Assembly (NCBI RefSeq): GCF_006717145.1
Contig: NZ_VFQF01000002.1
Coordinates: 310,001-374,000, forward strand
DNA: 64,000 nucleotides
DNA from: Humibacillus xanthopallidus
GTDB taxonomy: Bacteria > Actinomycetota > Actinomycetes > Actinomycetales > Dermatophilaceae
Direction of reading: 5' to 3'
The translations under genes were made by a program, and so were the position numbers. Below the pieces are notes generated by a model. It saw nothing but the letters and a program-made list of their open reading frames with translations, made no database searches and was not told the origin of the DNA. Shown piece by piece: positions 55,792 to 62,014 of this stretch (position 1 is the first letter of the stretch; every line of letters begins with the position of its first letter).

Positions 55792-55821
55792 TACGCTGTC
55801 GGCGAATCTGCCTGCGGCAGA
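55792..55821 (+). promoter_or_regulatory. ClgR-type and PopR-type operators upstream of the clpP pair
   Basis: TACGCTGTCGGCGAA (55792-55806) fits the ClgR pattern CGC-N5-GCG and matches 13 of 15 bases of the site before the regulator gene at 59460. Directly after it TCTGCC-TGC-GGCAGA (55807-55821) is a perfect palindrome matching, from memory, the Streptomyces PopR site TTCTGCC-N3-GGCAGAA. Its centre is about 50 bp before the ATG. Confidence 0.7.
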
Positions 55822-55863
55822 GCGTCATTCCAACGATCCTGTATGCCGTCCACGCTGGGTCAC

Positions 55864-56472
55864 ATGACCGAGACCCTCATGCACGGCCCGCTCGACGACC
55901 AGCTGTCGATGCAGCTGCTCCACCAGCGGATCATCGTCCTAGGGGCCGAGGTGGACGACCCGATCGCCAACCGGATCACCGCCCAGCTCCTCCTGCTCTC
56001 GGCCCGTGACCCGCGGGCCGATATCAGCCTCTACGTCAACAGCCCCGGCGGCTCGGTGACCGCCGGCCTTGCCATCTACGACACGATGCGCGTCATCCCC
56101 AACGACGTGTCCACTCTCGCAGTGGGATTCGCGGCCTCGATGGGCCAGTTCCTGCTCGGGGCGGGCACGCCCGGCAAGCGGTTCGCGCTGCCCAACGCAC
56201 GGATCATGATGCACCAGCCCTCCGCAGGCATCCAGGGCACGGCCGCCGACGTCGAGGTGCAGGCCGCCAACCTCAAGGCGGTCAAGCAGCGCGTCAACGA
56301 GCTGCAGTCCGAGCACACCGGTCAGACCGTCGAGCAGATCACCCGCGACAGCGAGCGCGACCGCTGGTTCAGCGCGGCGGAGGCGGCGGCATACGGCATC
56401 GTCGACCACGTCGTCACCTCGCTCGCTGATGTGCGCCCGGCAGGCGTCGAGCGGAAGGTGGGCCTGCGATGA
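55864..56472 (+). CDS. clpP: ClpP-type serine protease subunit (first of second pair)
   Basis: 202 residues. Catalytic Ser in [11 protein letters not shown], His in [10 protein letters not shown], Asp in the [18 protein letters not shown] region; [20 protein letters not shown] is the ClpP signature. Forms the proteolytic chamber fed by ClpX or ClpC. No tig or clpX is adjacent, so this is not the housekeeping pair but resembles the Streptomyces clpP3-clpP4 operon. ATG at 55864; one at 55843 is possible. Stop overlaps the second clpP (ATGA). Confidence 0.9.
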
Positions 56473-57080
56473 GCAGCTACACGATCCCCTACGTCATCGA
56501 GAAGACCCCGGCGGGCGAGCGCAGCTTCGACATCTACAGCCGGCTCCTTCAGGAGCGGATCATCTTCGTCGGCACCGAGATCGACGACGGGGTGGCGAAC
56601 GTCGTCATGGCCCAGCTGCTGCACCTTGCCGACGTCGCGCCCGACCGTGAGGTGTCGCTCTACGTCAACAGCCCCGGCGGCTCCTTCACCGCGCTCATGG
56701 CGATCTACGACACGATGCAGTTCGTGCCGACACCGGTCGCGACCTACTGCCTCGGGCAGGCGGCGTCGGCCGCGGCGGTGCTGCTCGCCGCCGGCGAGTC
56801 GGGGCGGCGCTTCGCGCTCAGGCACTCACGGGTGCTGCTCCACCAGCCGTCGGCGGGTGGTCAGGGGACCGTGAGCGACCTCGCCCTGCAGGCCGACGAG
56901 CTGCTCCGGGTGCGGTCGCAGGTGGAGGAGGTGCTGAGCCGGCACACCGGTCGCACGGTGGCCCAGCTGCGGGCCGACACCGACCGCGACAAGGTGCTCA
57001 CCGCCGCCGAGGCCGTCAGCTTCGGGATCGTCGACCACGTCATCGAGCGGGCCGCGGAGGCGCAGGTGGCGCAGGGCTGA
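56469..57080 (+). CDS. clpP: ClpP-type serine protease subunit (second of second pair)
   Basis: 203 residues. An N-terminal extension ([20 protein letters not shown]) precedes [41 protein letters not shown], catalytic Ser in [13 protein letters not shown] and His in [13 protein letters not shown]. Probably assembles with the upstream ClpP into a mixed double ring. Coupled translation. Confidence 0.9.
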
Positions 57081-57294
57081 CACGGCCCCGTGCCGCCCCC
57101 GGGGTGGCGCGTTTCGAGGACAGCGGTGGGTATCCGGTGCAAGATTTCCTGTGAACGGCCGAGAGACCCGTCGCCGAGGGCCATCCCAGACGTCCAGTCG
57201 ACAACAGTCCTCGCTCCCTCCTCGGCGCACCGTCGTCACGCGACTCGGGCCGCTGTGCCCCGTGGACGGGATCCACCTCCTCGAAGGGGAGACC

Positions 57295-59400
57295 ATGGGT
57301 AGTTCACGCAGGTCGCGCCTCAGGCGCATCAGTGCCATCTCCGTGCCGGTCCTCGCGCTCGCCGCGGCGCTGGGGATGTCGGTGACCCAGGCGCAGGCCG
57401 AGCCGGGTGCCTCCGCGCGGCTCGTCGGCACCTCGACGGCGACGACCGGGGCGTTCACCCCCTCGGGTGACGGTGACGTCACCCAGGTGGAGTTCGCCGG
57501 GGAGACGGACGCCGAGGCTGCCACGGCGCCCTACGCCGGCATCATCACGGACCGCAGCCTGTCGAGCGGCCACGGCAGCAGCAAGAGCATTGCGGTCAGG
57601 AGCGGCCCGCGGGCCAAGTCAAACCCTGCGCTCAAGGGAGGGTTCGACGGCCTCAACCTCTACCAGCAGCGGTATGCTCGTGGCGGCAACCAGTTCACCG
57701 TCGAGCCCCCCGACCAAGCCCTCTGCGTCGGCAACGGCCACGTCCTCGAGGCCGTCAACGACGTGCTCAACGTCTATGACACGTCGGGCGCCTCGGTGCT
57801 GCCGGACAACACGGCCACCAACATCGTCTCGGGCTCCCCGAGGAACGTCGACCACGCGGTCGACCTCAACTCGTTCTTCGGCTACGCCCCGGCGATCAAC
57901 CGCTCGACCGGAGTGCGAGCGCAGTTCGTCACTGACCCCGTGTGCCTCTTCGATGCTGCCACGCAGCGCTTCTTCGTCGGGGTGCTGACTCTGGAGACAC
58001 GGCCGAACGGATCGTTCACGACCGTGAACCACATCGACATGGCCGTCAGCCAGAGCGCCAACCCGGCGGGGTCGTGGAACATCTACAGGCTCGACGTGAC
58101 GAACGACGGCACGAACACCGGCGGCGCCAATCCCGGGCCCTACCTCGGCGACTACCCACACATCGGCGCGGACGCGAACGGGGTCTACATCACGACGAAC
58201 GCCTATCCATGGGGGACCAACGGCTTCGCCGGGGCGCAGGTCTATGCCCTGTCCAAGGCGCAGCTCGCTGCGGGTGCCTCCAGCGTGACGACTGTCCACC
58301 TCGACACCTCTGGCATGGTGCCCGTGCCGAGTGAGGCCGGCTCCACCCAACCCGGCTTCACCGTCTGGCCGGCGCAGTCGCCGGGCACGAGCTCCTTCGA
58401 GACGGCAGCCGGTGGCACGGAGTACTTCCTCAGCTCAAACGCCGCCGACGAGGCGACCCATCCGGTGTCCGGGAGCGTCGGCAGCCATCAGTCCAACCAG
58501 GTGGTCGTCTGGGCCCTGACGAACACATCGTCGCTCAACACGTCCACCCCAGCCGTCTCCCTCAGCGCCAAGGTGCTGGGCTCCGAGATGTACGCCATCC
58601 CGCCCAAGGCGCAGCAGCTGGGAGCCGGCTCGGCGCCCACGACGGCGACGCCGCAGGGCTTCTGCATCAACGACACGACGACGGCGACGATCGCCGGCGC
58701 GGGATGCTGGCGGTTGCTCTTCGGCGGCCAGCCAGCTCACAACGAGGTGGTCTCCAAGCCAGACTCCAACGACACCCGAATGCAGCAGGTCATGTACGCC
58801 AACGGCAAGCTCTGGGGCGCCCTCGACACGGCGGTCAACCCGACGGTCGACTCCGTTCCGGGCCCGCAGCGGGCCGGCATCGCCTGGTTCATCGTCAAGC
58901 CGTCGGTCGCCTCCGGCTCCCTCACGGCGAAGATGGCGCTGCAGGGCTACCTCGGTCGGGCTGGGGCGGACCTCACCTACCCGGCGATCGGGGTCACGCC
59001 GAGCGGTCGTGGCGTCATGGCCTTCAGCTACACCGACGACACGACGTTCCCGAGCGCCGGCTACGCCTCGATCGACGCTCTCGTGGGGACGGGCCCGATC
59101 TCCATCGCAAAGGAGGGGGCGGCGACCGACGACGGCTTCACGAGCTACAAGGCCCAGGTCGGCGATCCGCCTCGCACCCGGTGGGGCGACTACAGCGCGG
59201 CTGCCGTCGACGGTAGCTCCGTGTGGATCGCGAGCGAGTACGTGGCCAACGCGTGCAACTACACCACATGGGGTGGCCCTTTCTTCACGGGCGGCACGGG
59301 TGACAACCTGCTTGGCACGTGCGCGGGCGCGAGCCACGGTCCAGGTGTACGTACGGCGATCGGCAACTGGTCGACGCGCGTGAGCCAGCTGACGCCGTAG
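57295..59400 (+). CDS. Large secreted protein of unknown function
   Basis: 701 residues. Signal peptide (about 1-36, ISAISVPVLALAAALGMSVTQAQA). The mature part looks like a repeated beta-structure, perhaps a propeller: VEPPDQALCVGNGHVLEAVNDVLNVYD, AVSQSANPAGSWNIYRLDV, GPYLGDYPHIGADANGVYITTNAYPWG (split for length: YPHIGADANGVYITTNAY) and PRTRWGDYSAAAVDGSSVWIASEY. I do not recognise a named family. Start ATG with GAAGGGGAG upstream. It separates the clpP pair from the ClgR/PopR-like gene. Confidence 0.8.
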   Translation: MGSSRRSRLRRISAISVPVLALAAALGMSVTQAQAEPGASARLVGTSTATTGAFTPSGDGDVTQVEFAGETDAEAATAPYAGIITDRSLSSGHGSSKSIAVRSGPRAKSNPALKGGFDGLNLYQQRYARGGNQFTVEPPDQALCVGNGHVLEAVNDVLNVYDTSGASVLPDNTATNIVSGSPRNVDHAVDLNSFFGYAPAINRSTGVRAQFVTDPVCLFDAATQRFFVGVLTLETRPNGSFTTVNHIDMAVSQSANPAGSWNIYRLDVTNDGTNTGGANPGPYLGDYPHIGADANGVYITTNAYPWGTNGFAGAQVYALSKAQLAAGASSVTTVHLDTSGMVPVPSEAGSTQPGFTVWPAQSPGTSSFETAAGGTEYFLSSNAADEATHPVSGSVGSHQSNQVVVWALTNTSSLNTSTPAVSLSAKVLGSEMYAIPPKAQQLGAGSAPTTATPQGFCINDTTTATIAGAGCWRLLFGGQPAHNEVVSKPDSNDTRMQQVMYANGKLWGALDTAVNPTVDSVPGPQRAGIAWFIVKPSVASGSLTAKMALQGYLGRAGADLTYPAIGVTPSGRGVMAFSYTDDTTFPSAGYASIDALVGTGPISIAKEGAATDDGFTSYKAQVGDPPRTRWGDYSAAAVDGSSVWIASEYVANACNYTTWGGPFFTGGTGDNLLGTCAGASHGPGVRTAIGNWSTRVSQLTP

Positions 59401-59413
59401 CGGGGAGGGCCGC

Positions 59414-59452
59414 GAGCGACGACGGCGGGGGAGGGGCCCGCCGTCGTCGCTC
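59414..59452. terminator. 16-bp perfect hairpin between convergent genes
   Basis: GAGCGACGACGGCGGG (59414-59429) and CCCGCCGTCGTCGCTC (59437-59452), seven-base loop, serving the secreted protein gene and the regulator gene. Confidence 0.8.
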
Positions 59453-59459
59453 GTCCGCC

Positions 59460-59888
59460 TCAGGCGGCCAGCAGCGGAGCCGGGGTGTCGATGTGCGTGG
59501 CCGGCGCCAGGTCGCGCCCGGTCCACTGGTGGTCGACGGGGTCGCCGGGTCGCGCAGCCGTGAGGTCGAGCACGACTCCCTCGTCGCCCTCCTCGAGCGA
59601 CTCGGTGGGTAGGGCAGCGAATCCGCGGAGGTCGCGATGGGCCGCACCGACGAGCAACGTGACGCTCGACCCGAGGGCGATGCAGATCGCCTCGAGCACC
59701 TCCGACGACGGCTCCTTGAGGCCGCGCTCGATCTCGGAGAGGTAGGCAAGCGAGACGCCGGCCCGGGCCGACACCTCCGCGAGCGTGCGACCCTGACGGG
59801 TGCGAAGCCCGCGGAGCAGGCGACCGTAGACCTCTCGGAGCAGTGGGCGCCGCGGGGCGCGGGGCGAGTGACGGGCAGTCGTGCTCAT
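59460..59888 (-). CDS. ClgR/PopR-type XRE transcriptional activator with LLAA C-terminus
   Basis: 142 residues. [48 protein letters not shown] (hallmarks [10 protein letters not shown] and [19 protein letters not shown]), as in Streptomyces ClgR and PopR, which activate clp genes and are themselves degraded by ClpP through two terminal alanines. This protein ends APLLAA. ATG at 59888. An almost identical operator lies upstream of it and of the clpP pair 3.6 kb away. Whether it is ClgR or PopR proper is unresolved. Confidence 0.82.
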
Positions 59889-59953
59889 GGCTCTCCGATC
59901 GTCGAGACCCTCCCAGCGTCGCACGGGCGGTATGCCGTGGGGCCGCGTCCGCC

Positions 59954-59968
59954 TACGCCGTCGGCGTA
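59954..59968 (-). promoter_or_regulatory. ClgR-type operator upstream of the regulator gene
   Basis: TACGCCGTCGGCGTA is a perfect palindrome (CGC-N5-GCG) about 66 bp before the start codon, 13/15 identical to 55792-55806. Confidence 0.65.
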
Positions 59969-60110: not shown

Positions 60111-61163
60111 ATGACCCTCACCTCCACGGCGCCCTCGGGGCGTGCCAGATCCTCCGGCCCGGCGATCGAGGCCGAGCACCTCGTCAAGCGCTTCGGCGAC
60201 ATGACCGCCGTCGACGACGTCAGCTTCTCCGTGCCGCAGGGCACGGTTCTCGGTCTGCTCGGTCCCAACGGGGCAGGCAAGACCACCACCGTCCGCATGA
60301 TGACGACCCTCAGCGAGCCGACCAGCGGCACGGCCCGCGTCGCGGGCCACGACGTCGTGCGCGAGCCGGAGGCTGTGCGCCGCAGCATGGGCCTGACCGG
60401 TCAGGCCGCCACCGTCGACGAGCTGCTGACCGGTCGCGAGAACCTCCGCCTCATGGGCTCGCTCTACGGGCTGCCCAAGGCTGCGATCCGCCGGCTCTCC
60501 GACGAGCTCCTCGAGCGCTTCTCGCTCACCGACGCCGGTGACAAGGTCATCAAGGACTACAGCGGTGGCATGCGCCGGCGGCTCGACCTCGCCGTCAGCC
60601 TCATCGCGACACCGCCGGTGCTCTTCCTCGACGAGCCGACCACAGGCCTCGACCCGCGCAGCCGCGTCGAGCTGTGGGAGGTGCTGCGCGGACTCGTGCG
60701 CGACGGGACGACCCTGCTCCTCACGACGCAGTACCTCGAGGAGGCCGATCAGCTGGCCGACCGCATCGTCGTCATCGACCACGGCCGCATCATCGCCCAG
60801 GGCACGCCGCTCGAGCTCAAGGACCAGTCGGGCAAGGCCGCGATCGTGCTCACGGTCTCGCACGCGGACCAGCTCGAGGCCGCGCGGGCACTCCTGGCCG
60901 CACACGTCCCCGAGGTGCACGTCGACGTCGCGGCGCGACAGCTGACCGCCCCGGCCGACGGACTGTCCGACATGACGCGGGTCGCGACGGTCTTCGAACG
61001 TAGCGAGATCGTCCTCGACGACCTCGGCCTGCAGCGGCCCAGTCTCGATGACGTCTTCCTCAGCCTCACGGGTCACCGCGCCGAGCCGCCGGCCGGTGAC
61101 GGTGCGTCCAGCCCGTCTCCCACCACGTCTCCCGGCACGCCGAGCGAGGAGCGCCAGTCATGA
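60111..61163 (+). CDS. DrrA-type ABC exporter ATP-binding protein
   Basis: 350 residues. Walker A GPNGAGKTT, Q-loop GLTGQAATVDELLTGRENL, signature YSGGMRRRLDLA, Walker B VLFLDEPTTGLDPRSR, H-loop LLLTTQYLEEADQLADRI. The daunorubicin-resistance group C-terminal domain follows (RPSLDDVFLSLTGHRAE) and a Ser/Pro/Thr tail. Drives the permease encoded next; exports a hydrophobic compound. The stop overlaps the permease start (ATGA). Confidence 0.9.
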   Translation: MTLTSTAPSGRARSSGPAIEAEHLVKRFGDMTAVDDVSFSVPQGTVLGLLGPNGAGKTTTVRMMTTLSEPTSGTARVAGHDVVREPEAVRRSMGLTGQAATVDELLTGRENLRLMGSLYGLPKAAIRRLSDELLERFSLTDAGDKVIKDYSGGMRRRLDLAVSLIATPPVLFLDEPTTGLDPRSRVELWEVLRGLVRDGTTLLLTTQYLEEADQLADRIVVIDHGRIIAQGTPLELKDQSGKAAIVLTVSHADQLEAARALLAAHVPEVHVDVAARQLTAPADGLSDMTRVATVFERSEIVLDDLGLQRPSLDDVFLSLTGHRAEPPAGDGASSPSPTTSPGTPSEERQS

Positions 61164-62014
61164 CCGACGCAGCAGTCCAGGACGCCACACGCGTGGCGCC
61201 GGCATCACCTCACGACTTCCAGCCACCGGGCTTCGTCCGCCAGGTCACGACGATGGTCTGGCGCAGCCTGAAGCACATCAAGCGCCAGCCCGAGATGCTC
61301 ACCGACGTCACCATCCAGCCGGTGATGTTCGTGCTCCTCTTCGCCTTCGTCTTCGGCGGCTCGATCGTCATCCCCGGCTTCAACTACCGCGAGTGGCTGA
61401 TGCCGGGGATCATGGCCCAGACGATGGCGTTCTCCGCCTTCATCGTCGCGATCGGCCTCAACATGGATCTCGGCAAGGGCATCATCGACCGGTTCCGCTC
61501 GCTCCCGATCTCACGGGGCTCGGTGCTCGTCGGGCGCAGCATCTACAGCATCATCCACTCGAGCATCGGCATCTTCGTCATGTCGCTGACGGGGCTGGCG
61601 ATCGGCTGGCGCATCCACAACGGCGTCGGCAAGGCGCTGCTCGCCTTCGGGCTGCTGCTCCTCTTCGGCTTCGCGATGATCTGGGTGGGCATCCTCGTCG
61701 GCTCGTCGATGCGCTCACCCGAGGCCGTCAACGGGCTGATGTTCACGACGATCTTCCCGGTGACCTTCCTCGCCAACACGTTCGCACCGACCGTCGGCAT
61801 GGCGAGCTGGCTGCGCACCATCGCCGAGTGGAACCCGATCAGCGCGCTCGTGCAGGCGATGCGAGAGCTGTGGGGCAACGGCCCGCCGGCGCTGCCGGAT
61901 GCTGCACTGCCACTCCACTACCCGGTGATCACGACGGTCATCTGGTCCGTCGCCATCACGGCCGTCATGGCGCCGCTCGCCGTGCGAGCGTTCATCCGCC
62001 GCACGACCGACTGA
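61160..62014 (+). CDS. DrrB-type ABC-2 permease
   Basis: 284 residues, six membrane helices. Family motifs: TIQPVMFVLLFAFVFGGSI, EWLMPGIMAQTMAFSAF, DRFRSLPISRGSVLVGRS and FPVTFLANTFAPTVGMASWL. Pairs with the upstream ATPase; substrate unknown. Confidence 0.9.
   Translation: MTDAAVQDATRVAPASPHDFQPPGFVRQVTTMVWRSLKHIKRQPEMLTDVTIQPVMFVLLFAFVFGGSIVIPGFNYREWLMPGIMAQTMAFSAFIVAIGLNMDLGKGIIDRFRSLPISRGSVLVGRSIYSIIHSSIGIFVMSLTGLAIGWRIHNGVGKALLAFGLLLLFGFAMIWVGILVGSSMRSPEAVNGLMFTTIFPVTFLANTFAPTVGMASWLRTIAEWNPISALVQAMRELWGNGPPALPDAALPLHYPVITTVIWSVAITAVMAPLAVRAFIRRTTD

Follow-up and report, generated by a model that had tools for sequence, protein, structure and literature searches.

The window analyzed here, a stretch of 64,000 nucleotides (C2:310001-374000) of the 5.39 Mb genome of Humibacillus xanthopallidus, very probably carries a PopR-ClpP3P4 switch for a backup protease, as in Streptomyces, and the gene identities, orthology, operator, spacing to a –10-like element, conservation and Ala-Ala tail of the regulator, all read from sequence, point in this direction. 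Our best reading is that of a known kind of switch, found well outside Streptomyces, ordinary in kind and useful in breadth: tests of ClpP-targeting antibiotics on actinobacteria should allow for a backup ClpP, and the loci assembled here form a set of comparative data for PopR/ClgR specificity.

Binding, activation, degradation and the backup role are taken by analogy from Streptomyces, in which clpP3P4 is activated by PopR, itself a substrate for degradation by ClpXP1P2 in vitro (PMC9765437; PMC12607617). PopR would normally be degraded as soon as it is made, the housekeeping Clp protease (ClpP1P2 together with an ATPase) recognising it via the Ala-Ala tail. Failure or inhibition of ClpP1P2 would let PopR accumulate and, probably in the form of two dimers, occupy the tandem operator at 55792-55821. 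From this place just upstream of the –35 region it would recruit RNA polymerase to the –10 element and thereby switch on clpP3-clpP4. The circuit had been called self-contained in an earlier note on this DNA, which is too strong, because the proposed sensor step, the degradation of PopR by ClpP1P2, needs the other clpP pair of the genome.

Organization of the Locus

The three motifs and the genes lie where the earlier note had placed them, all positions being correct on re-reading (Table 1). The clpP4-type gene overlaps the clpP3-type gene by 4 bp, and the popR-type gene is convergent with the pair, its stop codon lying 2.38 kb past the end of the second clpP, in agreement with the approximately 2.4 kb given before. 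The 701-aa ORF has an N-terminus that looks, by eye, like a signal peptide; among the loci compared, those of Humibacillus and of two Terrabacter are the only ones in which it separates clpP4 from popR, and it is present in Terrabacter sp. Ter38 and partial in Root85.

Table 1. Features of the clpP3-clpP4-popR locus, in window coordinates.
Feature	Position	Strand	Basis or remark
Left operator site, ClgR-like half-sites, TACGCT-GTC-GGCGAA (TACGCTGTCGGCGAA)	55792..55806	+	Sequence reading
Right operator site, PopR palindrome, TCTGCC-TGC-GGCAGA	55807..55821	+	Sequence; published PopR site
–10-like element CACGCT	55851..55856	+	A at +31, T at +35 from the operator end
clpP3-type gene, 202 aa	55864..56472	+	PF00574, 1.3e-72; clpP3 clade
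clpP4-type gene, 203 aa	56469..57080	+	PF00574, 6.7e-72; clpP4 clade
701-aa ORF	57295..59400	+	No family match in Pfam or NCBIfam searches
popR-type regulator gene, 142 aa, HTH_31/HTH_3, C-terminus LLAA	59460..59888	–	
Single palindrome TACGCC-GTC-GGCGTA (TACGCCGTCGGCGTA)	59954..59968	–	Sequence reading; in the popR upstream region, which faces the divergent drrAB-like operon
DrrA/DrrB-like ABC exporter, divergent from popR	60111..62014		DrrA model above cut-off, DrrB-type models below

The Second clpP Pair

The window pair is not the only one of the genome, an outcome on which the earlier note had made its reading depend: there are four clpP genes in two pairs, the other being located at C1:1743437-1744684. 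In a tree built from 74 of the 191 ClpP rows, the first window protein falls in the popR-linked ClpP3 clade (99/93) and the second in the popR-linked ClpP4 clade (95/82), which bears out the assignment to the clpP3-clpP4 type. Both clades take in genus g37, which we infer to be Streptomyces-like from the number and layout of its clpP genes, among others, and the housekeeping ClpP1/ClpP2 pairs fall outside. First genes cluster with first genes and second with second, a grouping that fits what is expected of a duplication of the whole operon.

The Regulator

Judged by its sequence, the regulator is of the PopR type and paralogous to the canonical ClgR, as had been proposed: a 100/99 branch splits it and the other PopR-types from 13 ClgRs, in a tree of only 120 columns with many forks unresolved, for which 81 of 119 rows were used, leaving out duplicates, two truncated rows and most Micromonospora rows. 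All the ClgRs compared adjoin cinA (13/13); the window regulator does not, and in this genome that place is taken by another gene (L006, the canonical ClgR), on C1 behind a CDP-alcohol phosphatidyltransferase gene and cinA. The closest solved structures of the window regulator are nonetheless ClgRs (5woq, 3f51), it matches the NCBIfam ClgR model NF041677 with 80.7 bits, and its own promoter bears a ClgR-type palindrome, so that it might be a ClgR governing both clpP pairs, with no separate PopR switch. We consider this highly improbable, because the score lies under the cut-off of 170 bits, the cinA neighbourhood belongs to a different protein of the same genome and the tree separates the two groups; the identification as a plain ClgR was dropped on these grounds. 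Its NCBIfam matches include no PopR model, and the name PopR rests therefore on tree, linkage and operator.

The regulator of the window ends in LLAA, and a C-terminal Ala-Ala is a ClpXP signal, as stated in PMC7142297; enrichment of such tails is expected if PopR is a ClpP-degraded activator. They are found in 38 of the 43 PopRs linked to a clpP pair (the exceptions being three from Terrabacter, with VA, L139, with AS, and L152, with AG), in 14 of 30 regulators linked to one clpP, in 12 of 15 unlinked ones and in 13/13 ClgRs, against 13 of 617 gene-like background ORFs of the same loci, a crude gene set; two truncated regulators (L130, L158) were excluded from this count. In the class sample described below, 15 of 20 regulators end in AA and five otherwise.

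The Tandem Operator Upstream of clpP3

The two sites before clpP3 abut, without overlap, to give TACGCT-GTC-GGCGAATCTGCC-TGC-GGCAGA. The PopR site of S. lividans is TCTGCC-N3-GGCGAATCTGCC-N3-GGCAGA in a review (PMC9775585), through which the Streptomyces palindrome named in the earlier note is confirmed. The right-hand 21 bp of the window operator match this site exactly and the leftmost half-site has diverged (TACGCT, not TCTGCC). The pattern GGCGAATCTGCC-N3-GGCAGA, with 18 fixed letters, occurs once in the 5.39 Mb of the genome; genome-wide there are no sites at one or two mismatches, and within three mismatches there are 13, including that of the window, compared with 19 for a reversed control pattern. 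The exact right-hand 21 bp recur in 8 of 394 genomes of the class, window genome included, and the reversed control in none. Five of these eight belong to genus g37 (only 5 of its 39 sampled genomes, which speaks against the reading), in which the full published PopR site stands upstream of clpP with a convergent popR behind; these five loci were chosen by the right-hand pattern, so their left half alone is independent evidence. The ClgR-like pattern WCGCYNANRGCGW is matched at 367 places in the genome and its reversed control at 85, and a ClgR-like motif on its own was dropped as evidence for being too frequent.

A single tandem PopR operator is the simplest reading of both motifs. The earlier note had spoken of two overlapping operators, implying dual control; the motifs in fact abut and jointly match a single published PopR site, found as a tandem in most of the related loci, and this one site suffices. 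One tandem operator was preferred to two independent ones as the more economical account, given the published site and the conservation of the tandem, and dual control by ClgR and PopR is possible but not required for explaining the motifs.

Conservation was followed in 73 distinct regulator-linked clpP loci, drawn from the best 80 of 581 regulator relatives and from earlier loci, with two duplicates (L079 and L086, from the same contigs as L067 and L069) excluded from the counts. The tandem scores at least 22/24 in 64 of the 73 and 24/24 in 48, figures that overstate the evidence, since related genomes are non-independent. Micromonospora-type loci, which have one clpP, make up 28 of the 64, and several of them are near-identical. 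The scoring alphabet was fixed after 11 loci had been viewed; among the remaining 62, unseen when the scoring was devised and counted apart, 54 reach at least 22/24, a score attained by 0 of 1,687 control segments of 330 bp taken from elsewhere in these loci (maximum 20). The nine loci below 22/24 comprise one of the window's own family (L071), two of Asanoa, four of Jiangella, one of which has just 77 bp of upstream sequence, one of Streptosporangiaceae and one of Sanguibacter. A left half that is PopR-like as well, TCTGCC-N3-GGCGGA or -GGCAGA, is seen in many other species. Over the loci collected, the strict tandem gives 108 both-strand matches, corresponding to 54 sites, a number that includes copies of one site from overlapping loci, and all but one are upstream of clpP; none is found with any of eight alternative gaps between the halves (1-6, 8 and 10 bp). 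The exception, near 8772-8801 of L072 (genome G339), is a 24/24 tandem upstream of a non-clpP gene, and the same genome has a second 24/24 tandem near its own popR and clpP (L210).

A less selected sample consisted of 20 stretches around the second ClgR-family gene of genomes of the class, two of which (L217, L226) repeat Jiangella loci (L147, L122). A clpP is close by in 17 of the 20 (none in L216, L230 and L231), and the tandem reaches at least 22/24 in 10 of these 17 and stays below in seven, of which one (L226) has insufficient upstream sequence and four (L213, L217, L222, L227) have one good palindrome alone. The tandem operator is widespread, not universal. Since one palindrome stands alone in some sampled loci, the left site may have been added independently, and the rejection of two operators is weakened to that extent. 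Dual control, with ClgR on the left site and PopR on the right, so that clpP3P4 would answer to the general Clp activator as well as to the backup switch, is a possibility to which we give a minority share: such lone palindromes speak for it, as do the likeness of the left site to the clpP1 box of the same genome (TGCGCT-CAG-GGCGAA) and to the core of the ClgR consensus, the presence of TACGCT, TACGCC or TTCGCT at the left in Humibacillus and Terrabacter loci and the existence of a canonical ClgR in the genome. However, the tandem is kept where its left site is PopR-like (Micromonospora, Cellulomonas), a tandem is what has been published as the PopR site, half-site types trade positions between species (G413, G408), and the base after GGCGAA is T, as opposed to C in the Streptomyces ClgR motif, GTTCGC-5N-GCG, of the same review (PMC9775585).

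Spacing to the –10-Like Element

When the 64 operators are aligned, the most informative downstream positions are those of an A (+31) and of a TGG (+35 to +37), which together form an AnnnTGG element spanning about +31 to +37; in some loci it is displaced by roughly one base. In the window, the –10-like element lies about 30 bp downstream of the operator and 7 bp before the start codon of clpP3, and on account of this short distance the clpP3P4 transcript may be leaderless. Such a spacing would fit an activator that binds beside the –35 region. Proteins of the HTH_3 type are often repressors, and an operator adjoining the –35 region could also serve PopR in repressing clpP3P4, but this is very unlikely, as the operator leaves the –10-like element uncovered, ending some 30 bp before it, and as the PopR of Streptomyces is described as an activator.

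The popR Promoter and the Divergent Exporter

The palindrome upstream of popR in the window scores 12/12, a value equalled in 0 of 60 shuffles. A scan of popR promoters in chosen loci, with the Micromonospora-type ones left out, gave 12/12 in seven and 11/12 in four of 11 Intrasporangiaceae loci, one of the latter (L068) being no better than chance (11 of 60 shuffles). The right half of the site is GGCAGA in 9/9 Cellulomonas loci and GGCGAA in 5/5 Jiangella loci, and the sites are weak or absent in the five g37 loci and, on separate inspection, in the Micromonospora-type ones. An alignment of eight popR-drrA intergenic regions shows the popR site among the few conserved blocks, degenerate in G418. 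We propose that this single site, related to those before clpP3, would let PopR (or ClgR) control popR as well.

Of 11 distinct Intrasporangiaceae loci, 8 have a DrrA/DrrB-like exporter divergent from popR (L067-L069 and L080-L083, for example), and in G418 it is still so although clpP3P4 is missing. Within the promoter region of the exporter, an imperfect inverted repeat resembling ATGTTGACGGCGTTCAC is conserved, to which another regulator may bind. It is conceivable, if improbable, that a hybrid ClgR/PopR operator and the popR-drrAB site were gained in Intrasporangiaceae, on a ClgR-ClpP1P2 circuit that had been duplicated as a whole early in the evolution of actinobacteria and kept as a backup that senses the loss of ClpP; were this so, a drug poisoning ClpP1P2 would induce both a replacement protease and a DrrAB-type exporter.

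Relation to Known Systems

The closest known system is the PopR-clpP3clpP4 system of S. lividans (Viala 2000, 2002, as cited in PMC9775585, PMC9765437 and PMC12607617), with which the window shares the second clpP operon, the linked popR, the tandem operator, the paralogy with ClgR and the Ala-Ala tail. It differs in the leftmost half-site, as described above, in the roughly 2.4 kb with the 701-aa ORF that separate clpP4 and popR, and in the palindrome before popR, which is stronger than in five Streptomyces-like loci compared. The ClgR-clpP1P2 regulon of Streptomyces, Corynebacterium and Mycobacterium resembles it in HTH family, half-site type, Ala-Ala tail and clpP target; its ClgR, however, is the cinA-adjoining regulator, tied to the housekeeping pair, and the sites found before clpP1 in the loci compared here are single. 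In the PopR literature, as far as titles and the beginnings of abstracts go, most subscription papers lying beyond this scope, none describes the circuit outside Streptomyces, and the main text of PMC4255298 mentions neither clpP nor ClgR nor PopR.

Distribution Among Actinobacteria

A second ClgR-family gene goes together with extra clpP genes: among 98 genomes of the class, two ClgR-family genes are present in 22, and at least three clpP genes in 20 of these 22, against 7 of the other 76, which have one or no ClgR-family match (Fisher p = 5e-13, a value that ignores kinship and genome incompleteness and, the genomes being non-independent, overstates the evidence). Two genomes (G064, G079) have two regulators and two clpP, and seven (G021, G031, G078, G085, G089, G093, G094) have an extra clpP and one regulator. 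Within the window's family the regulator is a minority trait, a close match being found in 6 of 58 relatives, window genome counted. One of the family's genomes, G418, keeps popR and the neighbouring exporter and has two clpP genes only, apparently by loss of the second pair.

The regulator is found beside clpP in Humibacillus, Terrabacter, Intrasporangium, Cellulomonas, Isoptericola, Jiangella, Nocardioides, Nocardiopsis, Micromonospora and others, and the linkage of operator, regulator and protease outside Streptomyces, suggested from the window, is supported. In L101, L105-L110 and other Micromonospora/Salinispora loci, a single clpP3-like gene, preceded by the tandem operator, lies behind the regulator and in the same direction; the Ala-Ala tail is often gone, and no clpP4 partner was found within the stretch. 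PopR-like regulators ending in AA with no clpP in the stretch occur in Tsukamurella (L085, L088, L090-L093), Luteipulveratus (L087) and G418 (L068), and in L216, L230 and L231. The regulator of L089, a 6.6 kb contig labelled Acidobacteriaceae, is nested among those of Tsukamurella and comes perhaps from a contaminated bin.
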